64,000 nucleotides of DNA. Origin: Apostichopus japonicus. Lineage: Eukaryota; Echinodermata; Holothuroidea; Aspidochirotida; Stichopodidae. Both the position numbers and the translations under genes were made by a program. The stretch is taken from contig NC_092562.1 of NCBI RefSeq assembly GCF_037975245.1, forward strand, positions 13,882,501-13,946,500. Direction: 5' to 3'. This document shows positions 1 to 61,738 of the stretch, piece by piece (the first letter of the stretch is position 1; each line of letters opens with the position of its first letter). The notes under the pieces are model-generated. The model searched no databases. It was not told the origin of the DNA and worked only from the letters and a program-made list of their open reading frames with translations.

Positions 1-1410
1 CAGTATAAAACCAAGGTCAAAGTTATTGTTGGCTTCTAATAGCAATGAAGGCATCTACTTTAGGCTGCCACTTAGATGCATTAAGGTGTATTTATATCAC
101 ATTTAAGTTCTGTACCCCACAAGCTACACTGGTACTCATATAATATTAGGTCCTACAATGCGAATGATAAGTTTTATTCTGTATAGATTATCGCTGTCAA
201 TTAGATGAATTTATATTGAAGAGTTTTCATTGTTTGCTAGGTAGATGGATTTAGTTCTAATTAAGTTCTTGAGAGACATATTGTAATTGTAATTTAACTG
301 TCTGTACCCCACAAGGTATCCTGGCACTCATACCATATGACCAGAATACAGCATCAATAGGTGAATTTTCATTATCCTGTATATAAAGCACTGCCAAAAA
401 TATTGTTGGCTACTCATAGCAATGAAGGCATCTACTTAAGGCTGCCATTTAGATGCATTATTTTTAAGGTATATTTATATGACATTTAAGTTTTGTACCC
501 CACAAGCTACACTGGTACTCATATAATATAAGGTCCTACAATGCGAATGATCAGTCTTATTCTGTATAGATTATCGCTGTCAATTAGATGAATTTATATT
601 GAAGAATTTTCATTGTTTGCTAGGTAGATGGATTTGTTCTTATTAAGTTCTTGAGAGACAAATTGTAATTTAACTGTCTGTACCCCACAAGGTATCCTGG
701 TACTCATTCCACATGACCAGAATACAGTATCAATAGGTGAATTTTCATATTCCAGTATAAAACCAAGGTCAAAGTTATTGTTGGCTTCTAATAGCAATGA
801 AGGCATCTACTTTAGGCTGCCACTTAGATGCATTAAGGTGTATTTATATCACATTTAAGTTCTGTACCCCACAAGCTACACTGGTACTCATATAATATTA
901 GGTCCTACAATGCGAATGATAAGTTTTATTCTGTATAGATTATCGCTGTCAATTAGATGAATTTATATTGAAGAGTTTTCATTGTTTGCTAGGTAGATGG
1001 ATTTAGTTCTAATTAAGTTCTTGAGAGACATATTGTAATTGTAATTTAACTGTCTGTACCCCACAAGGTATCCTGGCACTCATACCATATGACCAGAATA
1101 CAGCATCAATAGGTGAATTTTCATTATCCTGTATATAAAGCACTGCCAAAAATATTGTTGGCTACTCATAGCAATGAAGGCATCTACTTAAGGCTGCCAT
1201 TTAGATGCATTATTTTTAAGGTATATTTATATGACATTTAAGTTTTGTACCCCACAAGCTACACTGGTACTCATATAATATAAGGTCCTACAATGCGAAT
1301 GATCAGTCTTATTCTGTATAGATTATCGCTGTCAATTAGATGAATTTATATTGAAGAATTTTCATTGTTTGCTAGGTAGATGGATTTGTTCTTATTAAGT
1401 TCTTGAGAGA

Positions 1411-1558
1411 CAAATTGTAATTTAACTGTCTGTACCCCACAAGGTATCCTGGCACTCATACCACATGACCAGAGTACAGTACGACAAATTGTAATTTAAC
1501 TGTCTGTACCCCACAAGGTATCCTGGCACTCATACCACATGACCAGAGTACAGTACAA
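1411..1558. repeat. 74-bp short modules (two copies)
   Basis: The segment from caaattgtaatttaactg through gagtacagtac repeats at 1411, 1485 and 1559, an exact 74-bp step. The module contains only the AGGTATCC-flavour box and lacks the rest of the dimer. It looks like a deleted monomer that expanded separately. The same module appears in one to five copies at many points of the array. Confidence 0.85.
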
Positions 1559-1652
1559 CAAATTGTCATTTGACTGTCTGTACCCCACAAGGTATCCTGG
1601 TACTCATACCACATGACCAGAATACAGTATCAATAGGTGAATTTTCATATTC

Positions 1653-4206
1653 CAGTATAAAACCAAGGTCAAAGTTATTGTTGGCTTCTAATAGCAATGA
1701 AGGCATCTACTTTAGGCTGCCACTTAGATGCATTAAGGTGTATTTATATCACATTTAAGTTCTGTACCCCACAAGCTACACTGGTACTCATATAATATTA
1801 GGTCCTACAATGCGAATGATAAGTTTTATTCTGTATAGATTATCGCTGTCAATTAGATGAATTTATATTGAAGAGTTTTCATTGTTTGCTAGGTAGATGG
1901 ATTTAGTTCTAATTAAGTTCTTGAGAGACATATTGTAATTGTAATTTAACTGTCTGTACCCCACAAGGTATCCTGGCACTCATACCATATGACCAGAATA
2001 CAGCATCAATAGGTGAATTTTCATTATCCTGTATATAAAGCACTGCCAAAAATATTGTTGGCTACTCATAGCAATGAAGGCATCTACTTAAGGCTGCCAT
2101 TTAGATGCATTATTTTTAAGGTATATTTATATGACATTTAAGTTTTGTACCCCACAAGCTACACTGGTACTCATATAATATAAGGTCCTACAATGCGAAT
2201 GATCAGTCTTATTCTGTATAGATTATCGCTGTCAATTAGATGAATTTATATTGAAGAATTTTCATTGTTTGCTAGGTAGATGGATTTGTTCTTATTAAGT
2301 TCTTGAGAGACAAATTGTAATTTAACTGTCTGTACCCCACAAGGTATCCTGGCACTCATACCACATGACCAGAGTACAGTACGACAAATTGTAATTTAAC
2401 TGTCTGTACCCCACAAGGTATCCTGGCACTCATACCACATGACCAGAGTACAGTACAACAAATTGTCATTTGACTGTCTGTACCCCACAAGGTATCCTGG
2501 CACTCATACCACATGACCAGAATACAGCATCAATAGGTGAATTTTCATTATCCTGTATATAAAGCACTGCCAAAAATATTGTTGGCTACTCATAGCAATA
2601 AAGGCATCTACTTAAGGCTGCCATTTAGATGCATTATTTTTAAGGTATATTTATATGACATTTAAGTTTTGTACCCCACAAGCTACACTGGTACTCATAT
2701 AATATAAGGTCCTACAATGCGAATGATAAGTTTTATTCTGTATAGATTATCGCTGTCAATGAGATGAATTTATATTGAAGAATTTTCATTGTTTGCTAGG
2801 TAGATGGATTTTGTTCTTGTTAAGTTCTTGAGAGACAAATTGTAATTTAACTGTCTGTACCCCACAAGGTATCCTGGTACTCATATCACATGACCAGAAT
2901 ACAGTATCAATAGGTGAATTTTCATATTCCAGTATAAAACCAAGGTCAAAGTTATTGTTGGCTTCTAATAGCAATGAAGGCATCTACTTTAGGCTGCCAC
3001 TTAGATGCATTAAGGTGTATTTATATCACATTTAAGTTCTGTACCCCACAAGCTACACTGGTACTCATATAATATTAGGTCCTACAATGCGAATGATAAG
3101 TTTTATTCTGTATAGATTATCGCTGTCAATTAGATGAATTTATATTGAAGAGTTTTCATTGTTTGCTAGGTAGATGGATTTAGTTCTAATTAAGTTCTTG
3201 AGAGACATATTGTAATTGTAATTTAACTGTCTGTACCCCACAAGGTATCCTGGCACTCATACCATATGACCAGAATACAGCATCAATAGGTGAATTTTCA
3301 TTATCCTGTATATAAAGCACTGCCAAAAATATTGTTGGCTACTCATAGCAATGAAGGCATCTACTTAAGGCTGCCATTTAGATGCATTATTTTTAAGGTA
3401 TATTTATATGACATTTAAGTTTTGTACCCCACAAGCTACACTGGTACTCATATAATATAAGGTCCTACAATGCGAATGATCAGTCTTATTCTGTATAGAT
3501 TATCGCTGTCAATTAGATGAATTTATATTGAAGAATTTTCATTGTTTGCTAGGTAGATGGATTTGTTCTTATTAAGTTCTTGAGAGACAAATTGTAATTT
3601 AACTGTCTGTACCCCACAAGGTATCCTGGCACTCATACCACATGACCAGAGTACAGTACGACAAATTGTAATTTAACTGTCTGTACCCCACAAGGTATCC
3701 TGGCACTCATACCACATGACCAGAGTACAGTACAACAAATTGTCATTTGACTGTCTGTACCCCACAAGGTATCCTGGCACTCATACCACATGACCAGAAT
3801 ACAGCATCAATAGGTGAATTTTCATTATCCTGTATATAAAGCACTGCCAAAAATATTGTTGGCTACTCATAGCAATAAAGGCATCTACTTAAGGCTGCCA
3901 TTTAGATGCAATATTTTTAAGGTATATTTATATGACATTTAAGTTTTGTACCCCACAAGCTACACTGGTACTCATATAATATAAGGTCCTACAATGCGAA
4001 TGATAAGTTTTATTCTGTATAGATTATCGCTGTCAATGAGATGAATTTATATTGAAGAATTTTCATTGTTTGCTAGGTAGATGGATTTTGTTCTTGTTAA
4101 GTTCTTGAGAGACAAATTGTAATTTAACTGTCTGTACCCCACAAGGTATCCTGGTACTCATATCACATGACCAGAATACAGTATCAATAGGTGAATTTTC
4201 ATATTC
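1653..4206. repeat. Two tandem 1277-bp higher-order repeat copies
   Basis: The landmark cagtataaaaccaagg occurs at 1653, 2930 and 4207, giving an exact period of 1277. Each copy holds three ~376-bp dimers plus two 74-bp short modules. The copies differ by only scattered single bases, which suggests recent unequal exchange or conversion. A copy with the same 1277 spacing lies at 7390-8666. Confidence 0.85.
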
Positions 4207-7200
4207 CAGTATAAAACCAAGGTCAAAGTTATTGTTGGCTTCTAATAGCAATGAAGGCATCTACTTTAGGCTGCCACTTAGATGCATTAAGGTGTATTTA
4301 TATCACATTTAAGTTCTGTACCCCACAAGCTACACTGGTACTCATATAATATTAGGTCCTACAATGCGAAGGATAAGTTTTATTCTGTATAGATTATCGC
4401 TGTCAATTAGATGAATTTATATTGAAGAGTTTTCATTGTTTGCTAGGTAGATGGATTTAGTTCTAATTAAGTTCTTGAGAGACATATTGTAATTGTAATT
4501 TAACTGTCTGTACCCCACAAGGTATCCTGGAACTCATACCACATGACCAGAATACAGCATCAATAGGTGAATTTTCATTATCCTGTATATAAAGCACTGC
4601 CAAAAATATTGTTGGCTACTCATAGCAATGAAGGCATCTACTTAAGGCTGCCATTTAGATGCATTATTTTTAAGGTATATTTATATGACATTTAAGTTTT
4701 GTACCCCACAAGCTACACTGGTACTCATATAATATTAGGTCCTACAATGCGCTGTCAATGAGATGAATTTATATTGAAGAATTTTCATTGTTTGCTAGGT
4801 AGATGGATTTTGTTCTGATAAAGTTCTTGAGAGACAAATTGTAATTTAACTGTCTGTACCCCACAAGGTGTCCTGGCAGTCATACCACATGACCAGAGTA
4901 CAGTACAACAGATTGTATTTTAACTGTCTGTAACCCACAAGGTATCCTGGCACTCATACCACATGACCAGAGTACAGTATCAACAAGTTAATATTTATTA
5001 TCCAGTATATTAAGCACTGTTAAAAATATTGTTGGCTACTCATAGCAATGAAGGCATCTACTTAAGGCTGCCACTTAGATGCATTAAGGTATATTTATAT
5101 CACATTAAAGTTCTGTACCCCACAAGCTACACTTGTACTCATAATCTTAAGTCCTACAATGCGAATACAAATTTTACTGTACAGATAACTGCGGTAAATC
5201 ATTGAATTCATATCAAGGAATATGCATTGTTTGCTAGGTAGAAGGATTTAGTTCTTGTTAAGTTCTTGAGAGACAAATTTTAATTTAAATGTCTGTACCC
5301 CACAAGGTATCCTGGTACTCATACCACATTACCAGAATACAGTATCAATAGGTGAATTTTCATATTCCAGTATAAAACCAAGGTCAAAGTTATTGTTGGC
5401 TTCTAATAGCAATGAAGGCATCTACTTTAGGCTGCCACTTAGATGCATTAAGGTGTATTTATATCACATTTAGTTCTGTACCCCACAAGCTACACTGGTA
5501 CTCATATAATATTAGGTCTTACAATGCGAATGATAAGTTTTATTCTGTATAGATTATCGCTGTCAATTAGATGAATTTATATTGAAGAGTTTTCATTGTT
5601 TGCTAGGTAGATGGATTTAGTTCTAATTAAGTTCTTGAGAGACATATTGTAATTGTAATTTAACTGTCTGTACCCCACAAGGTATCCTGGCACTCATACC
5701 ACATGACCAGAATACAGCATCAATAGGTGAAGTTTCATATTCCAGTATAAAACCAAGGTCAAAGTTATTGTTTGGCTTCTAATAGCAATGGAGGCATCTA
5801 CTCTAGCTGCCACTTAGATGCATTAAGGTGTATTTTTATCACATTTAAGTTTTGTACCCCACAAGCTACACTGGTACTCATATAATATAAGGTCCTACAA
5901 TGCGAATGATCAGTCTTATTCTGTATAGATTATCGCTGTCAATTAGATGAATTTATATTGAAGAATTTTCATTGTTTGCTAGGTAGATGGATTTGTTCTT
6001 ATTAAGTTCTTGAGAGACAAATTGTAATTTAACTGTCTGTACCCCACAAGGTATCCTGGCACTCATACCACATGACCAGAGTACAGTACGACAAATTGTA
6101 ATTTAACTGTCTGTACCCCACAAGGTATCCTGGCACTCATACCACATGACCAGAGTACAGTACAACAAATTGTCATTTGACTGTCTGTACCCCACAAGGT
6201 ATCCTGGCACTCATACCACATGACCAGAATACAGCATCAATAGGTGAATTTTCATTATCCTGTATATAAAGCACGGCCAAAAATATTGTTGGCTACTCAT
6301 AGCAATAAAGGCATCTACTTAAGGCTGCCATTTAGATGCATTATTTTTAAGGTATATTTATATGACATTTAAGTTTTGTACCCCACAAGCTACACTGGTA
6401 CTCATATAATATAAGGTCCTACAATGCGAATGATAAGTTTTATTCTGTATAGATTATCGCTGTCAATGAGATGAATTTATATTGAAGAATTTTCATTGTT
6501 TGCTAGGTAGATGGATTTTGTTCTTGTTAAGTTCTTGAGAGACAAATTGTAATTTAACTGTCTGTACCCCACAAGGTATCCTGGTACTCATATCACATGA
6601 CCAGAATACAGTATCAATAGGTGAATTTTCATATTCCAGTATAAAACCAAGGTCAAAGTTATTGTTGGCTTCTAATAGCAATGAAGGCATCTACTTTAGG
6701 CTGCCACTTAGATGCATTAAGGTGTATTTATATCACATTTAAGTTCTGTACCCCACAAGCTACACTGGTACTCATATAATATTAGGTCCTACAATGCGAA
6801 TGATAAGTTTTATTCTGTATAGATTATCGCTGTCAATTAGATGAATTTATATTGAAGAGTTTTCATTGTTTGCTAGGTAGATGGATTTAGTTCTAATTAA
6901 GTTCTTGAGAGACATATTGTAATTGTAATTTAACTGTCTGTACCCCACAAGGTATCCTGGCACTCATACCATATGACCAGAATACAGCATCAATAGGTGA
7001 ATTTTCATTATCCTGTATATAAAGCACTGCCAAAAATATTGTTGGCTACTCATAGCAATAAAGGCATCTACTTAAGGCTGCCATTTAGATGCATTATTTT
7101 TAAGGTATATTTATATGACATTTAAGTTTTGTACCCCACAAGCTACACTGGTACTCATATAATATAAGGTCCTACAATGCAGATGATAAGTTTTATTCTG

Positions 7201-7389
7201 TATAGATTATCGCTGTCAATTAGATGAATTTAAATTGTAGAATTTTCATTGTTTGCTAGGTAGATGGATTTTGTTCTTGTTAAGTTCTTGAGAGACAAAT
7301 TGTAATTTAACTGTCTGTACCCCACAAGGTATCCTGGTACTCATACCACATTACCAGAATACAGTATCAATAGGTGAATTTTCATATTC

Positions 7390-8666
7390 CAGTATAAAAC
7401 CAAGGTCAAAGTTATTGTTGGCTTCTAATAGCAATGAAGGCATCTACTTTAGGCTGCCACTTAGATGCATTAAGGTGTATTTATATCACATTTAAGTTCT
7501 GTACCCCACAAGCTACACTGGTACTCATATAATATTAGGTCCTACAATGCGAATGATAAGTTTTATTCTGTATAGATTATCGCTGTCAATTAGATGAATT
7601 TATATTGAAGAGTTTTCATTGTTTGCTAGGTAGATGGATTTAGTTCTAATTAAGTTCTTGAGAGACATATTGTAATTGTAATTTAACTGTCTGTACCCCA
7701 CAAGGTATCCTGGCACTCATACCATATGACCAGAATACAGCATCAATAGGTGAATTTTCATTATCCTGTATATAAAGCACTGCCAAAAATATTGTTGGCT
7801 ACTCATAGCAATGAAGGCATCTACTTAAGGCTGCCATTTAGATGCATTATTTTTAAGGTATATTTATATGACATTTAAGTTTTGTACCCCACAAGCTACA
7901 CTGGTACTCATATAATATAAGGTCCTACAATGCGAATGATGAGTCTTATTCTGTATAGATTATCGCTGTCAATTAGATCAATTTATATTGAAGAATTTTC
8001 ATTGTTTGCTAGGTAGATGGATTTGTTCTTATTAAGTTCTTGAGAGACAAATTGTAATTTAACTGTCTGTACCCCACAAGGTATCCTGGCACTCATACCA
8101 CATGACCAGAGTACAGTACGACAAATTGTAATTTAACTGTCTGTACCCCACAAGGTATCCTGGCACTCATACCACATGACCAGAGTACAGTACAACAAAT
8201 TGTCATTTGACTGTCTGTACCCCACAAGGTATCCTGGCACTCATACCACATGACCAGAATACAGCATCAATAGGTGAATTTTCATTATCCTGTATATAAA
8301 GCACTGCCAAAAATATTGTTGGCTACTCATAGCAATAAAGGCATCTACTTAAGGCTGCCATTTAGATGCATTATTTTTAAGGTATATTTATATGACATTT
8401 AAGTTTTGTACCCCACAAGCTACACTGGTACTCATATAATATAAGGTCCTACAATGCGAATGATAAGTTTTATTCTGTATAGATTATCGCTGTCAATGAG
8501 ATGAATTTATATTGAAGAATTTTCATTGTTTGCTAGGTAGATGGATTTTGTTCTTGTTAAGTTCTTGAGAGACAAATTGTAATTTAACTGTCTGTACCCC
8601 ACAAGGTATCCTGGTACTCATATCACATGACCAGAATACAGTATCAATAGGTGAATTTTCATATTC
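7390..8666. repeat. Third 1277-bp higher-order repeat copy
   Basis: The landmark cagtataaaaccaagg recurs at 7390 and 8667, again 1277 apart, with the same internal order of dimers and 74-bp modules as the copies at 1653-4206. Between these sets the landmark spacing is irregular (1161, 375, 894 and 753), so other dimers were gained or lost around it. Confidence 0.8.
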
Positions 8667-11275
8667 CAGTATAAAACCAAGGTCAAAGTTATTGTTGGCT
8701 TCTAATAGCAATGAAGGCATCTACTTTAGGCTGCCACTTACATGCATTAAGGTGTATTTTTATCACATTTAAGTTTTGTACCCCACAAGCTACACTGGTA
8801 CTCATATAATATAAGGTCCTACAATGCGAATGATAAGTTTTATTCTGTATAGATTATCGCTGTCAATTAGATGAATTTATATTGAAGAGTTTTCATTGTT
8901 TGCTAGGTAGATGGATTTAGTTCTAATTAAGTTCTTGAGAGACATATTGTAATTGTAATTTAACTGTCTGTACCCCACAAGGTATCCTGGCACTCATACC
9001 ACATGACCAGAATACAGCATCAATATTTGAATTTTCATTATCCTGTATATAAAGCACTGTAAAAAATATTGTTGGCTACTCATAGCAATGAAGGCATCTA
9101 CTTAAGGCTGCCATTTAGATGCATTATTTTTAAGGTATATTGATATGACATTTAAGTTTTGTACCCCACAAGCTACACTGGTACTAATATAATCTTAAGT
9201 CCTATGATGCAAATTATCAATTTACTATACAGATATCCATGGTAAATTCTTTGAATTCATATTGAAGGATTTCCATTGTTTGTTAGGTAGAAGGATTTAG
9301 TTCTTGTTAAGTTCTTGAGAGACAAATTGTAATTTTACTGTCTGTACCCCACAAGGTATCCTGGCACTCATACCACATGACCAGAGTACAGTACGACAAA
9401 TTGTAATTTAACTGTCTGTACCCCACAAGGTATCCTGGCACTCATACCACATGACCAGAGTACAGTATCAACAAGTTAATATTTATTATCCAGTATATTA
9501 AGCACTGTAAAAAATATTGTTGGCTACTCATAGCAATGAAGGCATCTACTTAAGGCTTCCACTTAGATGCATTAAGGTATATTTATATCACATTAAAGTT
9601 CTGTACCCCACAAGCTACACTTGTACTCATATAATCTTAATACCTACAATGCGAATACAAATTTTACTGTACAGATAACCGCGGTCAATCGGTGAATTCA
9701 TATCAAGGAATATCCATTGTTTGCTAGGTAGAAGGATTTTGTTCTTGTTAAGTTCTTGAGAGACAAATTTTAATTTAACTGTCTGTACCCCACAAGGTAT
9801 CCTGGTACTCATACCACATGACCAGAATACAGTATCAATAGGTGAATTTTCATATTCCAGTATAAAACCAAGGTCAAAGTTATTGTTGGCTTCTAATAGC
9901 AATGAAGGCATCTACTTTAGGCTGCCACTTACATGCATTAAGGTGTATTTATATCACATTTAAGTTCTGTACACCACAAGCTACACTGGTACTCATATAA
10001 TATTAGGTCTTACAATGCGAATGATAAGTTTTATTCTGTATAGATTATCGCTGTCAATTAGATGAATTTATATTGAAGAGTTTTCATTGTTTGCTAGGTA
10101 GATGGATTTAGTTCTAATTAAGTTCTTGAGAGACATAATTTAATTTATTTAACTGTCTGTACCCCACAAGGTATCCTGGCACTCATACCACATGACCAGA
10201 ATACAGCATCAATAGGTGAATTTTCATTATCCTGTATATAAAGCACTGCCAAAAATATTGTTGGCTACTCATAGCAATGAAGGCATCTACTTAAGGCTGC
10301 CATTTAGATGCATTATTTTTAAGGTATATTTATATGACATTTAAGTTTTGTACCCCACAAGCTACACTGGTACTCATATAATATAAGGTCCTACAATGCG
10401 AATGATAAGTTTTATTCTGTATAGATTATCGCTGTCAATGAGATGAATTTATATTGAAGAATTTTCATTGTTTGCTAGGTAGATGGATTTTGTTCTTATT
10501 AAGTTCTTGAGAGACAAATTGTAATTTAACTGTCTGTACCCCACAAGGTATCCTGGCACTCATACCACATGACCAGAGTACAGTACGACAAATTGTAATT
10601 TAACTGTCTGTACCCCACAAGGTATCCTGGCACTCATACCACATGACCAGAGTACAGTATCAACAAGTTAATATTTATTATCCAGTATATTAAGCACTGT
10701 TAAAAATATTGTTGGCTACTCATAGCAATGAAGGCATCTACTTAAGGCTGCCACTTAGATGCATTAAGGTATATTTATATCACATTAAAGTTCTGTACCC
10801 CACAAGCTACACTTGTACTCATAATCTTAAGTCCTACAATGCGAATACAAATTTTACTGTACAGATAACCGCGGTAAATCATTGAATTCATATCAAGGAA
10901 TATCCATTGTTTGCTAGGTAGAAGGATTTAGTTCTTGTTAAGTTCTTGAGAGACAAATTTTAATTTAAATGTCTGTACCCCACAAGGTATCCTGGTACTC
11001 ATACCACATTACCAGAATACAGTATCAATAGGTGAATTTTCATATTCCAGTATAAAACCAAGGTCAAAGTTATTGTTGGCTTCTAATAGCAATGAAGGCA
11101 TCTACTTTAGGCTGCCACTTAGATGCATTAAGGTGTATTTATATCACATTTAAGTTCTGTACCCCACAAGCTACACTGGTACTCATATAATATTAGGTCC
11201 TACAATGCGAAGGACAAGTTTTATTCTGTATAGATTATCGCTGTCAATTAGATGAATTTATATTGAAGAGTTTTC

Positions 11276-14200
11276 ATTGTTTGCTAGGTAGATGGATTTA
11301 GTTCTAATTAAGTTCTTGAGAGACATATTGTAATTGTAATTTAACTGTCTGTACCCCACAAGGTATCCTGGCACTCATACCATATGACCAGAATACAGCA
11401 TCAATAGGTGAATTTTCATTATCCTGTATATAAAGCACTGCCAAAAATATTGTTGGCTACTCATAGCAATAAAGGCATCTACTTAAGGCTGCCATTTAGA
11501 TGCATTATTTTTAAGGTATATTTATATGACATTTAAGTTTTGTACCCCACAAGCTACACTGGTACTCATATAATATAAGGTCCTACAATGCGAATGATAA
11601 GTCTTATTCTGTATAGATTATCGCTGTCAATTAGATGAATTTATATTGAAGAATTTTCATTGTTTGCTAGGTAGATGGATTTGTTCTTATTAAGTTCTTG
11701 AGAGACAAATTGTAATTTAACTGTCTGTACCCCACAAGGTATCCTGGCACTCATACCACATGACCAGAGTACAGTACGACAAATTGTAATTTAACTGTCT
11801 GTACCCCACCAAGGTATCCTGGCACTCATACCACATGACCAGAGTACAGTACAACAAATTGTCATTTGACTGTCTGTACCCCACAAGGTATCCTGGCACT
11901 CATACCACATGACCAGAATACAGCATCAATTGGTGAATTTTCATGATCCTGTATATAAAGCACTGCCAAAAATATTGTTGGCTACTCATAGCAATAAATG
12001 CATCTACTTAAGGCTGCCATTTAGATGCATTATTTTTAAGGTATATTTATATGACATTTAAGTTTTGTACCCCACAAGCTATACTGGTACTCATATAATA
12101 TAAGGTCCTACAATGCGAATGATAAGTTTTATTCTGTATAGATTATCGCTGTCAATGAGATGAATTTATATTGAAGAATTTTCATTGTTTGCTAGGTAGA
12201 TGGATTTTGTTCTTGTTAAGTTCTTGAGAGACATATTGTAATTTAACTGTCTGTACCCCACAAGGTATCCTGGTACTCATACCACATGACCAGAATACAG
12301 TATCAATAGGTGAATTTTCATATTCCAGTATAAAACCAAGATCAAAGTTATTGTTGGCTTCTAATAGCAATGAAGGCATCTACTTTAGGCTGCCACTTAC
12401 ATGCATTAAGGTGTATTTATAGCACATTTAAGTTCTGTACCCCACAAGCTACACTGGTACTCATATAATATTAGGTCCTACAATGCGAAGGATAAGTTTT
12501 ATTCTGTATAGATTATCGCTGTCAATTAGATGAATTTATATTGAAGAGTTTTCATTGTTTGCTAGGTAGATGGATTTAGTTCTAATTAAGTTCTTGAGAG
12601 ACATATTGTAATTGTAATTTAACTGTCTGTACCCCACAAGGTATCCTGGCACTCATACCACATGACCAGAATACAGCATCAATAGGTGAATTTTCATTAT
12701 CCTGTATATAAAGCACTGCCAAAAATATTGTTGGCTACTCATAGCAATGAAGGCATCTACTTAAGGCTGCCATTTAGATGCATTATTTTTAAGGTATATT
12801 TATATGACATTTAAGTTTTGTACCCCACAAGCTACACTGGAACTCATATAATATAAGGTCCTACAATGCGAATGATAAGTTTTATTCTGTATAGATTATC
12901 GCTGTCAATGAGATGAATTTATATTGAAGAATTTTCATTGTTTGCTAGGTAGATGGATTTTGTTCTTATTAAGTTCTTGAGAGACAAATTGTAATTTAAC
13001 TGTCTGTACCCCACAAGGTATCCTGGCACTCATACCACATGACCAGAGTACAGTACGACAAATTGTAATTTAACTGTCTGTACCCCACAAGGTATCCTGG
13101 CACTCATACCACATGACCAGACTACAGTACAACAAATTGTAATTTAACTGTCTGTACCCCACAAGGTATCCTGGCACTCATACCACATGACCAGAGTACA
13201 GTATCAACAAGTTAATATTTCTTATCCAGTATATTAAGCACTGTAAAAAATATTGTTGGCTACTCATAGCAATGAAGGCATCTACTTCAGGCTTCCACTT
13301 AGATGCATTTAGGTATATTTATATCACATTTAAGTTCTGTACCCCACAAGCTACACTTGTACTCATATAATCTTAAGTCCTACAATGCGAATACAAATTT
13401 TACTGTACAGATAACCGCGGTCAATCGGTGAATTCATATCAAGGAATATCCATTGTTTGCTAGGTAGAAGGATTTAGTTCTTGTTAAGTTCTTGAGAGAC
13501 ATATTGTAATTTAACTGTCTGTACCCCACAAGGTATCCTGGTACTCATACCACATGACCAGAATACAGTATCAATAGGTGAATTTTCATATTCCAGTATA
13601 AAACCAAGGTCAAAGTTATTGTTGGCTTCTAATAGCAATGAAGGCATCTACTTTAGGCTGCCACTTACATGCATTAAGGTGTATTTATAGCACATTTAAG
13701 TTCTGTACCCCACAAGCTACACTGGTACTCATATAATATTAGGTCCTACAATGCGAAGGACAAGTTTTATTCTGTATAGATTATCGCTGTCAATTAGATG
13801 AATTTATATTGAAGAGTTTTCATTGTTTGCTAGGTAGATGGATTTAGTTCTAATTAAGTTCTTGAGAGACATATTGTAATTGTAATTTAACTGTCTGTAC
13901 CCCACAAGGTATCCTGGCACTCATACCACATGACCAGAATACAGCATCAATAGGTGAATTTTCATTATCCTGTATATAAAGCACTGCCAAAAATATTGTT
14001 GGCTACTCATAGCAATGAAGGCATCTACTTAAGGCTGCCATTTAGATGCATTATTTTTAAGGTATATTTATATGACATTTAAGTTTTGTACCCCACAAGC
14101 TACACTGGTACTCATATAATATAAGGTCCTACAATGCGAATGATAAGTTTTATTCTGTATAGATTATCGCTGTCAATGAGATGAATTTATATTGAAGAAT

Positions 14201-16680: not shown

Positions 16681-19600
16681 TTTAGTTCTAATTAAGTTCT
16701 TGAGAGACATATTGTAATTGTAATTTAACTGTCTGTACCCCACAAGGTATCCTGGCACTCATACCATATGACCAGAATACAGCATCAATAGGTGAATTTT
16801 CATTATCCTGTATATAAAGCACTGCCAAAAATATTGTTGGCTACTCATAGCAATAAAGGCATCTACTTAAGGCTGCCATTTAGATGCATTATTTTTAAGG
16901 TATATTTATATGACATTTAAGTTTTGTACCCCACAAGCTACACTGGTACTCATATAATATAAGGTCCTACAATGCGAATGATAAGTCTTATTCTGTATAG
17001 ATTATCGCTGTCAATTAGATGAATTTATATTGAAGAATTTTCATTGTTTGCTAGGTAGATGGATTTGTTCTTATTAAGTTCTTGAGAGACAAATTGTAAT
17101 TTAACTGTCTGTACCCCACAAGGTATCCTGGCACTCATACCACATGACCAGAGTACAGTACGACAAATTGTAATTTAACTGTCTGTACCCCACCAAGGTA
17201 TCCTGGCACTCATACCACATGACCAGAGTACAGTACAACAAATTGTCATTTGACTGTCTGTACCCCACAAGGTATCCTGGCACTCATACCACATGACCAG
17301 AATACAGCATCAATTGGTGAATTTTCATGATCCTGTATATAAAGCACTGCCAAAAATATTGTTGGCTACTCATAGCAATAAATGCATCTACTTAAGGCTG
17401 CCATTTAGATGCATTATTTTTAAGGTATATTTATATGACATTTAAGTTTTGTACCCCACAAGCTATACTGGTACTCATATAATATAAGGTCCTACAATGC
17501 GAATGATAAGTTTTATTCTGTATAGATTATCGCTGTCAATGAGATGAATTTATATTGAAGAATTTTCATTGTTTGCTAGGTAGATGGATTTTGTTCTTGT
17601 TAAGTTCTTGAGAGACATATTGTAATTTAACTGTCTGTACCCCACAAGGTATCCTGGTACTCATACCACATGACCAGAATACAGTATCAATAGGTGAATT
17701 TTCATATTCCAGTATAAAACCAAGATCAAAGTTATTGTTGGCTTCTAATAGCAATGAAGGCATCTACTTTAGGCTGCCACTTACATGCATTAAGGTGTAT
17801 TTATAGCACATTTAAGTTCTGTACCCCACAAGCTACACTGGTACTCATATAATATTAGGTCCTACAATGCGAAGGATAAGTTTTATTCTGTATAGATTAT
17901 CGCTGTCAATTAGATGAATTTATATTGAAGAGTTTTCATTGTTTGCTAGGTAGATGGATTTAGTTCTAATTAAGTTCTTGAGAGACAAATTGTAATTGTA
18001 ATTTAACTGTCTGTACCCCACAAGGTATCCTGGCACTCATACCACATGACCAGAATACAGCATCAATAGGTGAATTTTCATTATCCTGTATATAAAGCAC
18101 TGCCAAAAATATTGTTGGCTACTCATAGCAATGAAGGCATCTACTTAAGGCTGCCATTTAGATGCATTATTTTTAAGGTATATTTATATGACATTTAAGT
18201 TTTGTACCCCACAAGCTACACTGGAACTCATATAATATAAGGTCCTACAATGCGAATGATAAGTTTTATTCTGTATAGATTATCGCTGTCAATGAGATGA
18301 ATTTATATTGAAGAATTTTCATTGTTTGCTAGGTAGATGGATTTTGTTCTTATTAAGTTCTTGAGAGACAAATTGTAATTTAACTGTCTGTACCCCACAA
18401 GGTATCCTGGCACTCATACCACATGACCAGAGTACAGTACGACAAATTGTAATTTAACTGTCTGTACCCCACAAGGTATCCTGGCACTCATACCACATGA
18501 CCAGACTACAGTACAACAAATTGTAATTTAACTGTCTGTACCCCACAAGGTATCCTGGCACTCATACCACATGACCAGAGTACAGTATCAACAAGTTAAT
18601 ATTTCTTATCCAGTATATTAAGCACTGTAAAAAATATTGTTGGCTACTCATAGCAATGAAGGCATCTACTTCAGGCTTCCACTTAGATGCATTTAGGTAT
18701 ATTTATATCACATTTAAGTTCTGTACCCCACAAGCTACACTTGTACTCATATAATCTTAAGTCCTACAATGCGAATACAAATTTTACTGTACAGATAACC
18801 GCGGTCAATCGGTGAATTCATATCAAGGAATATCCATTGTTTGCTAGGTAGAAGGATTTAGTTCTTGTTAAGTTCTTGAGAGACATATTGTAATTTAACT
18901 GTCTGTACCCCACAAGGTATCCTGGTACTCATACCACATGACCAGAATACAGTATCAATAGGTGAATTTTCATATTCCAGTATAAAACCAAGGTCAAAGT
19001 TATTGTTGGCTTCTAATAGCAATGAAGGCATCTACTTTAGGCTGCCACTTACATGCATTAAGGTGTATTTATAGCACATTTAAGTTCTGTACCCCACAAG
19101 CTACACTGGTACTCATATAATATTAGGTCCTACAATACGAAGGACAAGTTTTATTCTGTATAGATTATCGCTGTCAATTAGATGAATTTATATTGAAGAG
19201 TTTTCATTGTTTGCTAGGTAGATGGATTTAGTTCTAATTAAGTTCTTGAGAGACATATTGTAATTGTAATTTAACTGTCTGTACCCCACAAGGTATCCTG
19301 GCACTCATACCACATGACCAGAATACAGCATCAATAGGTGAATTTTCATTATCCTGTATATAAAGCACTGCCAAAAATATTGTTGGCTACTCATAGCAAT
19401 GAAGGCATCTACTTAAGGCTGCCATTTAGATGCATTATTTTTAAGGTATATTTATGGGACTTTTAAGTTTTGTACCCCACAAGCTACACTGGTACTCATA
19501 TAATATAAGGTCCTACAATGCGAATGATAAGTTTTATTCTGTATAGATTATCGCTGTCAATGAGATGAATTTATATTGAAGAATTTTCATTGTTTGCTAG

Positions 19601-20720
19601 GTAGATGGATTTTGTTCTTATTAAGTTCTTGACAGACAAATTGTAATTTAACTGTCTGTACCCCACAAGGTATCCTGGCACTCATACCACATGACCAGAG
19701 TACAGTACGACAAATTGTAATTTAACTGTCTGCACCCCACAAGGTATCCTGGCACTCATACCACATGACCAGAGTACAGTACAACAAATTGTAATTTAAC
19801 TGTCTGTACCCCACAAGGTATCCTGGCACTCATACCACATGACCAGAGTACAGTACAACAAATTGTAATTTAACTGTCTGTACCCCACAAGGTATCCTGG
19901 CACTCATACCACATGACCAGAGTACAGTATCAACAAGTTAATATTTATTATCCAGTATATTAAGCACTGTAAAAAATATTGTTGGCTACTCATAGCAATG
20001 AAGGCATCTACTTAAGGCTGCCACTTAGATGCATTAAGGTATATTTATATCACATTAAAGTTCTGTACCCCACAAGCTACACTTGTACTCATATAATCTT
20101 AAGTCCTACAATGCAAATACAAATTTTACTGTACAGATAACCGCGGTCAATCGGTGAATTCATATCAAGGAATATCCATTGTATGCTAGGTAGAAGGATT
20201 TAGTTCTTGTTAAGTTCTTGAGAGACAAATTTTAATTGAAATGTCTGTACCCCACAAGGTATCCTGGTACTCATACCACATTACCAGAGTACAGTACGAC
20301 AAATTGTAATTTAACTGTCTGTACCCCACAAGGTATCCTGGCACTCATACCACATGACCAGAGTACAGTACAACAAATTGTAATTTAACTGTCTGTACCC
20401 CACAAGGTATCCTGGCACTCATACCACATGACCAGAATACAGCATCAATAGGTGAATTTTCATTATCCTGTATATAAAGCACTGCCAAAAAATTGTTGGC
20501 TACTCATAGCAATGAAGGCATCTACTTAAGGCTGCCATTTAGATGCATTATTTTTAAGGTATATTTATATGACATTTAAGTTTTGTACCCCACAAGCTAC
20601 ACTGGTACTCATATAATATAAGGTCCTACAATGCGAATGATCAGTTTTATTCTGTATAGATTATCGCTGTCAATTAGATGAATTTATATTGAAGAATTTT
20701 CATTGTTTGCTAGGTAGATG
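16661..20720. repeat. ~4.0-kb second copy of the block, one unit shorter
   Basis: This copy matches the block at 11,276 with a 5384-base offset until about 20,100. After that the match continues with an offset of 4041, so one ~1343-bp unit is missing. Homology ends near 20,720, where ttttgttctgataaag replaces tttagttctaattaag. This is the expected product of unequal crossing-over between neighbouring units. Confidence 0.75.
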
Positions 20721-21559
20721 GATTTTGTTCTGATAAAGTTCTTGAGAGACAAATTGTAATTTAACTGTCTGTACCCCACAAGGTATCCTGGCACTCATAC
20801 CACATGACCAGAGTACAGTACGACAAATTGTAATTTAACTGTCTGTACCCCACAAGGTATCCTGGCACTCATACCACATGACCAGAGTACAGTATCAACA
20901 AGTTAATATTTATTATCCAGTATATTAAGCACTGCAAAAAATATTGTTGGCTACTCATAGCAATGAAGGCATCTACTTAAGGCTTCCACTTAGATGCATT
21001 AAGGTATATTTATATCACATTAAAGTTCTGTACCCCACAAGCTACACTTGTACTCATATAATCTTAATTCCTACAATGCGAATACAAATTTTACTGTACA
21101 GATAACCACGGTAAATCGGTGAATTCATATCAAGGAATATCCATTGTTTGCTAGGTAGAAGGATTTAGTTCTTGTTAAGTTCTTGAGAGACAAATTTTAA
21201 TTGACATGTCTGTACCCCACAAGGTATCCTGGTACTCATACCACATTACCAGAATACAGTATCAATAGGTGAAGTTTCATATTCCAGTATAAAACCAAGG
21301 TCAAAGTTATTGTTGGCTTCTAATAGCAATGAAGGCATCACTTTAGGCTGCCACGTAGATGCATTAAGGTGTATTTATATCACATTTAAGTTCTGTACCT
21401 CACAAGCTACACTGGTACTCATATAATATTAGGTCCTACAATGCGAATGATAAGTTTTATTCTGTATAGATTATCACTGTCAATGAGATGAATTTATATT
21501 GAAGAATTTTCATTGTTTGCTAGGTAGATGGATTTAGTTCTGATAAAGTTCTTGAGAGA

Positions 21560-21929
21560 CAAATTGTAATTTAACTGTCTGTACCCCACAAGGTTTCCTG
21601 GCATTCATACCACATGACCAGAGTACAGTACGACAAATTGTAATTTAACTGTCTGTACCCCACAAGGTATCCTGGCACTCATACCACATGACCAGAGTAC
21701 AGTACAACAAATTGTAATTTAACTGTCTGTACCCCACAAGGTATCCTGGTACTCATACCACATTACCAGAGTACAGTACGACAAATTGTAATTTAACTGT
21801 CTGTACCCCACAATGTATCCTGGCACTCATACCACATGACCAGAGTACAGTACAACAAATTGTAATTTAACTGTCTGTACCCCACAAGGTATCCTGGCAC
21901 TCATACCACATGACCAGAATACAGCATCA
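21560..21929. repeat. Run of five 74-bp modules
   Basis: The start caaattgtaattt recurs at 21,560, 21,634, 21,708, 21,782 and 21,856, all 74 bases apart. This is among the longest uninterrupted short-module runs in the array. One copy carries aatgtatcc in place of aaggtatcc and another carries aggtttcc. Confidence 0.8.
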
Positions 21930-22921: not shown

Positions 22922-25587
22922 CAGTATAAAACCAAGGTCAAAGTTATTGTTGGCTTCTAATAGCAATGAAGGCATCACTTTAGGCTGCCACGTAGATGCA
23001 TTAAGGTGTATTTATATCACATTTAAGTTCTGTACCTCACAAGCTACACTGGTACTCATATAATATTAGGTCCTACAATGCGAATGATAAGTTTTATTCT
23101 GTATAGATTATCACTGTCAATGAGATGAATTTATATTGAAGAATTTTCATTGTTTGCTAGGTAGATGGATTTAGTTCTGATAAAGTTCTTGAGAGACAAA
23201 TTGTAATTTAACTGTCTGTACCCCACAAGGTTTCCTGGCACTCATACCACATGACCAGAGTACAGTACGACAAATTGTAATTTAACTGTCTGTACCCCAC
23301 AAGGTATCCTGGCACTCATACCACATGACCAGAGTACAGTACAACAAATTGTAATTTAACTGTCTCTACCCCACAAGGTATCCTGGCACTCATACCACAT
23401 GACCAGAATACAGCATCAATAGGTGAATTTTCATTATCCTGTATATAAAGCACTGCCAAAAAATTGTTGGCTACTCATAGCAATGAAGGCATCTACTTAA
23501 GGCTGCCATTTAGATGCATTATTTTTAAGGTATATTTATATGACATTTAAGTTTTGTACCCACAAGCTACACTGGTACTCATATAATATAAGGTCCTACA
23601 ATGCGAATGATCAGTTTTATTCTGTATAGATTATCGCTGTCAATGAGATGAATTTATATTGAAGAATTTTCATTGTTTGCTAGGTAGATGGATTTTGTTC
23701 TTATTAAGTTCTTGAGAGACAAATTGTAATTTAACTGTCTGTACCCCACAAGGTATCCTGGCACTCATACCACATGACCAGAGTACAGTACAACAAATTG
23801 TAATTTAACTGTCTGTACCCCACAAGGTATCCTGGCACTCATACCACATGATAAGAGTACAGTATCAACAAGTTAATATTTATTATCCAGTATATTAAGC
23901 ACTGCCAAAAATATTGTTGGCTACTCATAGCAATGAAGGCATCTACTTAAGGCTTCCACTTAGATGCATTAAGGTATATTTATATCACATTAAAGTTCTG
24001 TACCCAACAAGCTACACTTGTACTCATATAATCTTAAGTCCTACAATGCGAATACAAATTTGACTGTACAGATAACCGCGGTCAATCGGTGAATTCATAT
24101 CAAGGAATATCCATTGTTTGCTAGGTAGAAGGATTTAGTTCTTGTTAAGTTCTTGAGAGACAAATTTTAATTTAAATGTCTGTACCCCACAAGGTATCCT
24201 GGTACTCATACCACATTACCAGAATACAGTATCAATAGGTGAATTTTCATATTCCAATATAAAACCAAGGTCAAAGTTATTGTTGGCTTCTAATAGCAAT
24301 GAAGGCATCACTTTAGGCTGCCACTTAGATGCATTAAGGTGTATTTATATCACATTTAAGTTCTGTACCCCACAAGCTACACTGGTACTCATATAATATT
24401 AGGTCCTACAATGCGAATGATAAGTTTTATTCTGTATAGATTATCACTGTCAATGAGATGAATTTATATTGAAGAATTTTCATTGTTTGCTAGGTAGATG
24501 GATTTAGTTCTGATAAAGTTCTTGAGAGACAAATTGTAATTTAACTGTCTGTACCCCACAAGGTTTCCTGGCACTCATACCACATGACCAGAGTACAGTA
24601 CGACAAATTGTAATTTAACTGTCTGTACCCCACAAGGTATCCTGGCACTCATACCACATGACCAGAGTACAGTACAACAAATTGTAATTTAACTGTCTCT
24701 ACCCCACAAGGTATCCTGGCACTCATACCACATGACCAGAATACAGCATCAATAGGTGAATTTTCATTATCCTGTATATAAAGCACTGCCAAAAAATTGT
24801 TGGCTACTCATAGCAATGAAGGCATCTACTTAAGGCTGCCATTTAGATGCATTATTTTTAAGGTATATTTATATGACATTTAAGTTTTGTACCCACAAGC
24901 TACACTGGTACTCATATAATATAAGGTCCTACAATGCGAATGATCAGTTTTATTCTGTATAGATTATCGCTGTCAATGAGATGAATTTATATTGAAGAAT
25001 TTTCATTGTTTGCTAGGTAGATGGATTTTGTTCTTATTAAGTTCTTGAGAGACAAATTGTAATTTAACTGTCTGTACCCCACAAGGTATCCTGGCACTCA
25101 TACCACATGACCAGAGTACAGTACAACAAATTGTAATTTAACTGTCTGTACCCCACAAGGTATCCTGGCACTCATACCACATGATAAGAGTACAGTATCA
25201 ACAAGTTAATATTTATTATCCAGTATATTAAGCACTGCCAAAAATATTGTTGGCTACTCATAGCAATGAAGGCATCTACTTAAGGCTTCCACTTAGATGC
25301 ATTAAGGTATATTTATATCACATTAAAGTTCTGTACCCAACAAGCTACACTTGTACTCATATAATCTTAAGTCCTACAATGCGAATACAAATTTGACTGT
25401 ACAGATAACCGCGGTCAATCGGTGAATTCATATCAAGGAATATCCATTGTTTGCTAGGTAGAAGGATTTAGTTCTTGTTAAGTTCTTGAGAGACAAATTT
25501 TAATTGAAATGTCTGTACCCCACAAGGTATCCTGGTACTCATACCACATTACCAGAATACAGTATCAATAGGTGAATTTTCATATTC
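22922..25587. repeat. Two tandem 1333-bp higher-order repeat copies
   Basis: Landmarks at 22,922, 24,255 and 25,588 are 1333 apart. Both copies share private variants: a missing C in gtacccacaag (23,556 and 24,889), cacatgataagag, and ggcatcactttagg lacking a TA. They are therefore a recent tandem duplication, separate from the 1277-bp set. Confidence 0.8.
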
Positions 25588-27599
25588 CAATATAAAACCA
25601 AGGTCAAAGTTATTGTTGGCTTCTAATAGCAATGAAGGCATCACTTTAGGCTGCCACTTAGATGCATTAAGGTGTATTTATATCACATTTAAGTTCTGTA
25701 CCCCACAAGCTACACTGGTACTCATATAATATTAGGTCCTACAATGCGAATGATAAGTTTTATTCTGTATAGATTATCGCTGTCAATTAGATGAATTTAT
25801 ATTGAAGAGTTTTCATTGTTTGCTAGGTAGATGGATTTAGTTCTAATTAAGTTCTTGAGAGACATATTTTAATTGTAATTTAACTGTCTGTACCCCACAA
25901 GGTATCCTGGCACTCATACCACATGACCAGAATACAGCATCAATAGGTGAATTTTCATTATCCTGTATATAAAGCACTGCCAAAAATATTGTTGGCTACT
26001 CATAGCAATGAAGGCATCTACTTAAGGCTGCCATTTAGATGCATTATTTTTAAGGTATATTTATATGACATTTAAGTTTTGTACCCCACAAGCTACACTG
26101 GTACTCATATAATATAAGGTCCTACAATGCGAATCATAAGTTTTATTCTGTACAGATTATCGCTGTCAATTAGATGAATTTATATTGAAGAGTTTTCATT
26201 GTTTGCTAGGTAGATGGATTTAGTTCTAATTAAGTTCTTGAGAGACATATTGTAATTGTATTTTAACTGTCTGTACCCCACAAGGTATCCTGGCACTCAT
26301 ACCACATGACCAGAATACAGCATCAATAGGTGAATTTTCATTATCCTGTATATAAAGTCCTGCCAAAAATATTGTTGGCTACTCATAGCAATGAAGGCAT
26401 CTACTTAAGGCTGCCATTTTGATGCATTATTTTTAAGGTATATTTATATGACATTTAAGTTTTGTACCCCACAAGCTACACTGGTACTCATATAATATAA
26501 GGTCCTACAATGCGAATGATAAGTTTTATTCTGTATAGATTATCGCTGTCAATTAGATGAATTTATATTGAAGAGTTTTCATTGTTTGCTAGGTAGATGG
26601 ATTTAGTTCTAATTAAGTTCTTGAGAGACAAATTGTAATTGTAATTTAACTGTCTGTACACCACAAGGTATCCTGGCACTCATACCACATAACCAGAATA
26701 CAGCATCAATAGGTGAATTTTCATTATCCTGTATATAAAGCACTGCCAAAAATATTGTTGGCTACTCATAGCAATGAAGGCATCTACTTAAGGCTGCCAT
26801 TTAGATGCATTATTTTTAAGGTATATTGATATGACATTTAAGTTTTGTACCCCACAAGCTACACTGGTACTAATATAATATAAGGTCCTACAATGTGAAT
26901 GATAAGTTTTATTCTGTATAGATTATCGCTGTCAATGAGATGAATTTATATTGAAGAGTTTTCATTGTTTGCTAGGTAGATGGATTTTGTTCTTGTTAAG
27001 TTCTTGAGAGACAAATTGTAATTTAACTGTCTGTACCCCACAAGGTATCCTGGTACTCATACCACATGACCAGAATACAGTATCAGTAGGTGAATTTTCA
27101 TATTCCAGTATAAAACCAAGGTCAAAGTTATTGTTGGCTTCTAATAGCAATGAAGGCATCTACTTTAGGCTGCCATTTTGATGCATTATTTTTAAGGTAT
27201 ATTTATATGACATTTAAGTTTTGTACCCCACAAGCTACACTGGTACTCATATAATATAAGGTCCTACAATGCGAATGATAAGTTTTATTCTGTATAGATT
27301 ATCGCTGTCAATTAGATGAATTTATATTGAAGAGTTTTCATTGTTTGCTAGGTAGATGGATTTAGTTCTAATTAAGTTCTTGAGAGACAAATTGTAATTG
27401 TAATTTAACTGTCTGTACACCACAAGGTATCCTGGCACTCATACCACATAACCAGAATACAGCATCAATAGGTGAATTTTCATTATCCTGTATATAAAGC
27501 ACTGCCAAAAATATTGTTGGCTACTCATAGCAATGAAGGCATCTACTTAAGGCTGCCATTTAGATGCATTATTTTTAAGGTATATTGATATGACATTTA

Positions 27600-30500
27600 C
27601 GTTTTGTACCCCACAAGCTACACTGGTACTAATATAATCTTAAGTCCTATGATGCAAATTATCAATTTACTATACAGATATCCATGGTAAATTCTTTGAA
27701 TTCATATTGAAGGATTTCCATTGTTTGTTAGGTAGAAGGATTTAGTTCTTGTTAAGTTCTTGAGAGACAAATTGTAATTTTACTGTCTGTACCTCACAAG
27801 GTATCCTGGCACTCATACCACATGACCAGAGTACAGTACGACAAATTGTAATTTAACTGTCTGTACCCCACAAGGTATCCTGGCACTCATACCACATGAC
27901 CAGAGTACAGTACAACAAATTGTAATTTAACTGTCTGTACCCCACAAGGTAACCTGGCACTCATACCACATGACCAGAGTACAGTACGACAAATTGTAAT
28001 TTAACTGTCTCTACCCCACAAGGTATCCTGGCACTCATACAACATGACCAGAGTACAGTATCAACAAGTTAATATTTATTATCCAGTATATGAAGCACTG
28101 TAAAAAATATTGTTGGCTACTCATAGCAATGAAGGCATCTACTTTAGGCTGCCATTTAGATGCATTAAGGTATGTTTATATTACATTTAAGTTCTGTACC
28201 CCACAAGCTACACTTGTACTCATATAATCTTAAGTCCTACAATGCGAATAAAAATTTTACTGTACAGATAACCGCTGTCAATTAATGAATTCATATCAAG
28301 GAATATCCATTGTTTGCTAGGTAGAAGGATTTAGTTCTTGTTAAGTTCTTGAGAGACAAATTTTAATTTAATTTAAATGTCTGTACCCAACAAGGTATAC
28401 TGGTACTCATACCATATTACCAGAATACAGTATCAATAGGTGAATTTTCATATTCCAGTAGAAAACCAAGGTCAAAGTTATTGTTTGGCCTCTAATAGCA
28501 ATGAAGGCATCTACTTTAGGCTGCCACTTAGATGCATTGAAGTACATTTATATCACATTTAAGTTCTGTACCCCACAAGCTACACTGGTACTCATATAAT
28601 ATTAGGTCTTACAATGGGAATGATAAGTATTTTTTGGTATAGATTATCTCTGTCAATTACATGAATTTATATTGAAGAATTTTCATTGTTTGCTAGGTAG
28701 ATGGATTTAGTTCTAATTAAGTTCTTGAGAGACAAATTTTAATTAAATTTAACTGTCTGTACCCCACAAGGTATCCTGGCACTCATACAACATGACCAGA
28801 ATACAGCATCAATAGGTGAATTTTCATATTACAGTATAAAACCAGGGTCAAAGTTATTGTTTGGGTTCTCAATGGAGGCATCTATTCTAGCTGCCACTTA
28901 GATGCATTAAGGTGTATTTATATCACATTTAAGTTCTGTACCCCACAAGCTACACTGGTACTCATATAATATTAGGTCCTACAATGCGAATGATAAGTAT
29001 TTTCTGTATAGATTATCGCTGTCAATTTGATGAATACATATCAAGGAATATCCATAGTTTGCTAGGTAGATGGATTTAGTTCTTGTTTAGTTCTTGAAAG
29101 ACAAATTGTAATTTAACTGTCTGTACCCCACAAGGTATATTGGCACTCATACCACATGACCAGAGTACAGTACGACAAATTGTAATTTAACTGTCTGTAC
29201 CCCACAAGGTATCCTGGCACTCATACCACATGACCAGAGTACAGTACAACAAATTGTAATTTAACTGTCTGTACCCCACAAGGTATCCTGGCACTCATAC
29301 CACATAACCAGAGTACAGTATCAACAAGTTAATATTTATTATCCAGTATATAAAGCACTGTAAAAATTATTGTTGGCTACTCATAGCAATGAAGGTATCT
29401 ACTTTAGGTTGCAATTTAGATGCATTAAGGTATATTTATTTTACATTTAAGTTCTGTACCCCACAAGCTACACTTGTACTCATATAATCATAAGTCCTAC
29501 AATGCGAATAAAAGTTTTACTGTACAGATAACCATGGTAAATTCTTTGAATTTATATTGAAGAATTTATATTGCTTGCTAGGTAGAAGGATTAAGTTTTT
29601 GTTATTAGTTCTTGAGAGACAAATATTAATTAAATTTAACTCTCTGTACCCCACAAGGTATCCTGGCACTCATACCACATAACCAGAGTACAGTATCAAC
29701 AAGTTAATATTTATTATCCACCATATAAAGCACTGTAAAAAATATTGTTGGCTACTCATAGCAATTGAGAAATCTACTTTAGGCTGCCATTTAGATGCAT
29801 TAAGGTATATTTATATTACATTAAAGTTCTGTACCCCACAAGCTACACTTGTACTCATATAATCTTAAGTGCTACAATGCGAATAAAAATTTTACTGTAC
29901 AGATTACCACGGTCAATCGATGAATTCATATCAAGAAATATCCATTGTTTGCTAGGTAGAAGGATTTAGTTCTTGTTAAGTTCTTGAGAGACAAATTTTA
30001 ATTAAATTTAACTGTCTGTACCCCACAAGGTATCCTGGCACTCATACAACATGACCAGAATACAGCATCAATAGGTGAATTTTCATATTCCAGTATAAAA
30101 CCAAGGTCAAAGTTATTGATTAACTTCTAACAGAAACGAAGGCATCTACTTTAGGCTCCCACTTAGATGCATTAAGGTATACTTATATCACATTTTAATT
30201 TTGTACCTCACAAGCTACACTTGTACTCATATAATCTTCTGTCCTACAATGAAATTAATACATTTACTGTACAGATTACCACTGTCAATTAGGTGAATTC
30301 ATATCAAGAAATTTCCATTGTTTGCTAGGTAGAAGGATTTAGTTCTTATGAGCCAAATTGAAGTTTTATTTCACTTCCTCTACGCCACAAGGTATCCTGG
30401 CACTCATACAACATGGCCAGCATACAGCATCAATTGGTGAATTTTCCTTATCCAGTATACAGCAACTGTCGAAGTTATTGTTGGCTTCTAATAGCAATGA

Positions 30501-30620
30501 AGGCATCTACTTTAGGCTGCAACAAGGATGCATTAAGGTGCATTTATATCACATTTAAGTTCTGTACCCCACAAGCTACACTGGTACTCGTATAATATTT
30601 AGGTCCTAGAATGCGAATGG
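27600..30620. repeat. Diverged right edge of the array
   Basis: The ~188-bp spacing and boxes persist here, but substitutions and small indels are much denser than in the interior. Examples are agttattgatta, ccaccatataaag and tacgccacaagg. The last clear box is near 30,567 and similarity stops at about 30,620. Decay toward an array boundary is typical of tandem satellites, because edge copies are not homogenised by exchange. Confidence 0.75.

Positions 30621-38934: not shown

Positions 38935-61738
<22,804 letters not shown>

Follow-up and report, generated by a model that had tools for sequence, protein, structure and literature searches.

The 64,000 nucleotides of Apostichopus japonicus DNA analysed here (the window) begin inside a long tandem array in which one 30-bp box recurs in units that are otherwise little alike. 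This raises the question of what such an array preserves from copy to copy: a repeat sequence as a whole, or a short box and its spacing.

The window begins inside a long satellite array

A first-pass annotation had placed a tandem array at positions 1 to 30,620, described it as a satellite with nested organization, and proposed that it runs on past the window. The array is borne out by tile identity, box count, TRF and self-matches, and both the nested organization and most of the lengths given for it are right. Its left end is open, as the window begins inside it, and its right edge lies at ~30,620. The array and its two box types are as follows.

1 to ~30,620 (left end open), plus strand: satellite array of ~376-bp dimers and 74-bp partial copies; half-units of 179–191 bp (A) and 155–192 bp (B), the final B being cut at 54 bp
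303 to 332, plus strand: box A, example, TGTACCCCACAAGGTATCCTGGCACTCATA; 124 copies including those in 74-bp modules
111 to 140, plus strand: box B, example, TGTACCCCACAAGCTACACTGGTACTCATA; 72 copies

Tiles of 500 bp up to position 30,500 are 0.86–0.97 identical to the circular dimer consensus. Identity is 0.68 in the edge-spanning tile (30,501–31,000) and 0.65 in the following tile, both values being raised by free jumps. Self-matches and TRF rows stop at 30,618–30,619, and a BLAST comparison of the rest of the window with the array (E up to 0.001) gave no match. The box pattern, allowing up to 3 mismatches, is matched 192 times, on the plus strand only, and 0 times in 100 shuffles (expected 0.00). 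The 193 intervals between boxes fall mostly at 175–195 bp (137 intervals, mean 187.0) or at 70–80 bp (53 intervals), leaving 3 of other lengths. Among the top 60 lags at which 12-mers are shared are 74, 376, 383, 753, 1,277, 1,333, 1,342 and 5,384 bp.

This long head-to-tail array is satellite DNA with higher-order repeats, and such arrays are known from other species. The satellite pattern has no exact match in bacterial, archaeal and viral contigs, and GTACCCCACAAG yielded 0 exact text matches in open-access main texts, a scope that leaves aside supplements and sequence databases. The few papers retrieved on echinoderm and sea urchin satellites, judged by titles, do not concern the present repeat, and none was retrieved on sea cucumber satellites.

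Dimers and 74-bp modules form higher-order repeats

Half-units A and B alternate and mostly measure 183–191 bp and 180–192 bp, respectively. When typed by length, the 70 dimers comprise 13 alpha (184+192), 21 beta (191+185/186), 10 gamma (185+182) and 26 other dimers. Over ~380 columns, the alpha and beta consensus sequences are separated by 24 substitutions, and gamma is separated from alpha or beta by 43–50.

An alpha dimer plus a beta dimer creates a 753-bp level that was absent from the first-pass annotation. Of the three higher-order repeat lengths claimed there, 1,277 and 1,333 bp were recovered, and that given as 1,343 bp is actually 1,342 bp. The 1,277-bp repeat is composed of beta, alpha, beta, m, m, where m is a 74-bp module, and the repeats of 1,268 and 1,342 bp carry gamma, alpha, beta plus two or three m. 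Tiled blocks at lags of 1,277, 1,333 and 1,342 bp are 97–100% alike, above the likeness of the units inside them.

2,483 to 3,759, plus strand: 1,277-bp higher-order repeat, example (beta, alpha, beta, module, module)
13,157 to 15,840, plus strand: two 1,342-bp higher-order repeats in succession, built of gamma, alpha, beta and three modules
22,930 to 25,850, plus strand: successive 1,333-bp higher-order repeats, ends approximate (200-bp tiles)
1,409 to 1,629, plus strand: 74-bp box-A module, example (3.0 copies, 96% matches)

At lag 1,277, ungapped identity is 0.99–1.00 in eight 200-bp tiles from 1,701. Identity is 0.97–1.00 at lag 1,342 in the 200-bp tiles from 13,001 to 14,800, and 0.99–1.00 at lag 1,333 in the tiles from 23,001 to 24,400.

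The 74-bp modules are present in the higher-order repeats as had been claimed, and their nature can now be specified. All backward jumps along the consensus (53/53) depart from position 47 and land at 345 or 347. The module is a tandem duplication of only the segment around box A, with one junction. Because this junction is common to the 53 jumps, the module probably arose in one old event that was then copied along the array.

On a larger scale, the array carries a duplication of several higher-order repeats.

10,953 to 20,818, plus strand: large tandem duplication, two matched blocks, the second copy one 1,342-bp unit shorter

Positions 10,953–14,912 match 16,331–20,296 at 98.8% over 3,967 bp with a lag of 5,378–5,384, and positions 14,325–16,782 match 18,367–20,818 at 99.0% over 2,458 bp with a lag of 4,042. 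The difference between the lags equals one 1,342-bp unit, by which the second copy is shorter. The earlier claim that a ~5.4-kb block is duplicated holds if the second copy has lost that unit.

Chimeric dimers make up 15 of the 70. Their 25 switches of dimer type occupy 17 alignment columns, distributed over the length of the dimer. No switch (0/25) is placed inside a box. Five of the 25 lie 4–7 alignment columns beyond box B, in a stretch with few informative sites, and are inseparable from a switch inside the box. All 15 chimeric dimers are among the 26 that were not used as type references, and several of them repeat one event.

The two half-units share a 30-bp box and little else

The consensus lengths of the A and B halves are 185 and 186 bp. 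Mean identity between copies is 90% within A and within B and 44% between A and B (measured on 58 A and 56 B units that were selected for an exact box match). Rightward from the start of the box, A and B agree at 23 of the first 30 bases and thereafter at 2–3 per 10. Reading leftward, 6 of 10 agree, followed by 4, 4, 1, 4 and 3 per 10.

With the box removed, the global alignment score of the interiors is reached by 317/1,000 shuffles. The in-register global A/B score is reached by 208/400 shuffles, and 72 of 140 rotations of the interiors outscore the box register. Local scores lie further from chance: that in register is reached by 19/400 shuffles, and the best local interior match, which is out of register, by 14/1,000, or by 6/1,000 with a shorter interior. 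On these comparisons, the A and B halves clearly share the 30-bp box only, and the sequence between boxes is alike at or barely above chance. The unit that the sequence supports is the ~376-bp dimer with two boxes.

These results bear on the earlier proposal that a ~188-bp monomer diverged into a ~376-bp dimer. The spacing and the dimer stand. A common monomer is not supported outside the box, given the global scores, although the local tests are weakly positive. The monomer-then-dimer history derives from box spacing, since the inter-box sequence hardly supports it. A true 188-bp monomer might nevertheless have doubled so long ago that all but the box diverged beyond recognition. The nearly equal lengths of the halves and the weak local similarity speak for such a doubling, and the chance-level global similarity of the interiors and the many rotations that beat the box register speak against it. 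We consider it a real possibility, although we lean away from it, and it is compatible with the explanation that we favor below.

Boxes vary less than the rest of the array

Boxes A and B differ at 4 positions, 3 of which are fixed or nearly so in both. Position 9 is G in 124/124 A copies and C in 72/72 B copies, and the fourth difference varies among A copies (99 C, 24 T, 1 A). Because the two boxes stay distinct, A–B exchange fails to account for box conservation.

The first unit extraction and its column counts were set aside because exact box matches had rendered the box invariant by construction. The figures that follow come from a decomposition that is not anchored on the box, whose consensus was taken from the first extraction and carries a small residual bias. 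When 371 overlapping circular 30-column windows (mean mismatch 5.4%) are ordered by mismatch, box A (1.37%) is second lowest and box B (1.39%) fifth lowest. In the array core, boxes A+B deviate at 1.3% vs 4.7% overall, a value matched by 8/20,000 random column sets when columns are treated as independent. The diverged edge of the array behaves similarly.

28,014 to 30,620, plus strand: diverged array edge with near-identical boxes, used for mismatch counts by column class

Mismatches at this edge number 7/266 in box A, 6/210 in box B, 32/364 in module columns outside the box and 206/1,729 in other columns. Boxes A+B deviate there at 2.7% vs 9.8% overall, matched by 3/20,000 random 60-column sets, again with columns treated as independent. 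Box sites thus deviate from consensus three to four times less than array sites overall, in both halves and with the edge included. The box mismatch rate is lower than that of the same half-unit's other columns in 183 of 196 half-units and higher in 13. Copies share descent, and therefore such counts of copies and cells overstate the independence of the evidence for box conservation. What emerges is a short box kept between otherwise unlike units, within one array.

Counts of distinct alternative alleles separate the two boxes. Box B has 8 in 30 columns vs 175 in 268 others, a level reached in only 8 of 269 windows, of which 7 overlap box B. Box A has 18 in 30 columns, which is not low (0.60 per column vs 0.65 elsewhere). 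Per 1,000 copies, box A carries 4.84 alleles vs 5.47 in the rest of the module, and its singletons are higher (3.23 vs 1.89). G+C content is 47–50% in the boxes and 29% in other columns; outside the boxes, G/C columns carry more alternative alleles than A/T columns, and the C columns of box A have 1.10 alleles each vs 0.97 elsewhere.

A third block, TTGTTTGCTAGGTAG, is found in the B half only (consensus columns 300–316) and is conserved to the same degree as the boxes. Low variation is therefore not peculiar to the box.

Box-like copies, genes and other repeats lie beyond the array edge

About 430 bp past the array edge, the box recurs on its own.

31,051 to 31,145, plus strand: four box-like copies that lack the remainder of the repeat

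Four copies fall within 150 bp, vs at most 3 (once) in 200 shuffles, and their best local score is 36 vs a maximum of 33 in 20 shuffles; the cluster was first spotted by eye, and these tests are thus after the fact. Over the flank as a whole, box-like matches are not clearly enriched (9 vs a shuffle mean of 5.2 and maximum of 11). These outlying copies could have decayed from the array itself, or they could represent an older short repeat that gave rise to the box.

Positions 31,313–33,119 hold diverged direct repeats rich in GGTCA/TGACC that have no BLAST match to the satellite. They include a 105-bp segment present five times (77–92% to the reference) and a 140-bp segment that recurs 954 bp away with 96% identity.

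The nearest likely exons begin ~6 kb to the right of the array edge, as ORFs on the minus strand at ~36.6–37.3 kb. These coiled-coil-like stretches have weak Pfam matches, below the cut-off. A 106-bp repeat with 7.9 copies (35,846–36,685) overlaps the end of the coiled-coil-like minus-strand ORF at 36,616–36,777, and has perhaps grown out of it. An assembly gap of 100 N (37,921–38,020) lies between the coiled-coil-like stretches and a likely kinase gene. A plus-strand exon at 56.8 kb of that gene matches protein kinase domains in Pfam, and its best solved structure is LIM domain kinase 1. We read the gene as a putative TESK, and presume from motif and likeness that stretches at 61.3 and 61.7 kb also belong to it. 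Positions 38,917–39,333 are presumably its first exon (near 39.2 kb), by likeness; this segment has no match in Pfam, nor among PDB structures up to E = 10.

Minisatellites occur in or near the likely kinase gene at 47,663–48,436 (57-bp units), 49,939–50,285 (92-bp), 52,203–53,237 (60-bp) and 57,012–57,361 (41-bp), and the genome may be rich in them. Positions 46,055–46,145 give a weak tRNA-like match (21.6 bits against a gathering score of 29, E = 0.37), possibly a tRNA-derived SINE.

Tests for centromere and nucleosome signals

Repeat length is the one property that links this array to nucleosomes or centromeres, and satellite lengths close to the nucleosome repeat are described as common (PMC8122249). 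AA/TT/TA periodicity at 10.2 bp is not seen in the array (power 0.24 vs a median of 0.18). The CENP-B box motif has nine key bases, which were used for scoring. The best matches are 6/9 in the consensus, 7/9 in the array and 8/9 in the flank; in shuffled consensus sequences a best score of 6 is the commonest result (197/300). The array contains no TTAGGG/CCCTAA, the search for dyads was negative, and positions 1–2,400 contain no inverted repeats of at least 16 bp.

Comparison with known satellites

Primate alpha satellite has a monomer of 171 bp. Like the present half-units, its monomers are arranged in higher-order repeats, and some of them carry a protein-binding box. Alpha monomers within higher-order repeats are 75–88% alike, as cited in PMC3694981, vs 44% for the present A and B copies.

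The closest published case found is that of the box-sharing satellites of Meloidogyne root-knot nematodes, for which a 17-bp CENP-B-box-like Box 1 (PMC3694981) and a centromeric 19-bp box (PMC9673304) are described. There, too, according to the same two sources, higher-order repeats are built from divergent units that have a short conserved box in common. This likeness is one of organization, and the present box differs in having no CENP-B resemblance. The present array is also unlike those of Meloidogyne in that its module junction lies outside the box, ~20 bp away, and in that its dimer consists of two alternating halves, each with a box, at a box spacing of ~187 bp.

Conserved and variable domains within one unit are described as well for the frog satellite PcP190, which is centromeric or pericentromeric and most likely derived from 5S rDNA (PMC4201667). 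Unlike PcP190, the present array has no match to an RNA family (Rfam) up to E = 1 in positions 1–31,200; across the window none reaches the gathering score.

Alternative explanations for the conserved box

Low box variation could arise without any function if a short stretch common to two unrelated sequences had brought them together, with unevenness in rate and the recent spread of a few copies producing the conserved box. In the core, mismatch is low in the module columns that surround box A as well (3.9% vs 6.0% in other columns), as fits recent spread, and both the ordinary number of distinct alleles in box A and the conserved block outside the boxes agree with this neutral origin. However, box A at the array edge (2.6%, 7/266) stands well below the module columns around it (8.8%, 32/364; Fisher p = 0.0013 with cells taken as independent), and box B is among the lowest windows despite lying outside the module. 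We therefore judge a neutral satellite rather unlikely, if still a serious contender. If instead exchanges started in the box and conversion kept it uniform, the box would be a recombination or junction motif. Meloidogyne satellites of 32–64% identity are reported to share their 17-bp box at monomer junctions (PMC3694981), the 74-bp module is centered on box A, and the five switches just past box B could lie inside it. Yet the switches are spread along the dimer with none placed inside a box, the module junction is ~20 bp outside the box, and the A and B boxes remain distinct, which leaves a junction motif improbable.

The array might also be part of a transposable element, for instance a Helitron that bears tandem repeats. 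Helitron-associated satellites of this kind are known in oyster, where they are described as scattered over the chromosomes and not only at centromeres (PMC8268682). The present locus, in contrast, is one long array that exceeds 30 kb in the window, its longest stop-free stretch is 94 codons, the inverted repeats sought in its first 2,400 bp were absent, and by eye no element end is recognized at 30,620; such an origin seems very improbable. Hardly more credible still is an assembly artefact, the reading to which we give the least weight: repeats are easily misassembled and the window has one 100-N gap, but no gap falls inside the array, its edge copies are more diverged, as in natural arrays, and the 45 longest self-matches listed are 85–99% alike and not identical, even though some neighboring 200-bp tiles reach 1.00.

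A protein-bound box as the favored explanation

The explanation we favor, which we find about as easy to credit as to doubt, is a satellite shaped by unequal exchange in which a constrained, protein-bound box is the likeliest cause of low variation. From the nested tandem duplications, the single shared module junction and the chimeric dimers, we infer that unequal exchange and gene conversion expanded and homogenized the array. The two half-units present the same 30-bp box ~187 bp apart, on spacers that are barely or not alike. A sequence-specific nuclear protein may bind this box, in the manner of CENP-B and its box in alpha satellite, so that arrays would persist if they retained the box at a spacing close to that of nucleosomes. 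Such a protein might act at a centromere, in other heterochromatin or in recombination.

A bolder version can be stated, which we regard as speculative and unlikely in its full form. The satellite would in effect serve to carry a single 30-bp protein-binding box, repeated every ~187 bp on two spacers of equal length that are barely or not related. The genome would be keeping the box and the spacing, and not the repeat sequence, and an undescribed centromere or heterochromatin protein other than CENP-B would read the box.

Satellites that keep a box offer one of the few opportunities to guess at a sequence signal in DNA of the centromere type. If the present box binds nothing, the array simply adds to the known nested satellites, and its main use lies in offering an assembled edge close to genes. 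If it binds a protein, it would provide a non-CENP-B case for testing whether satellites are maintained by box and spacing.
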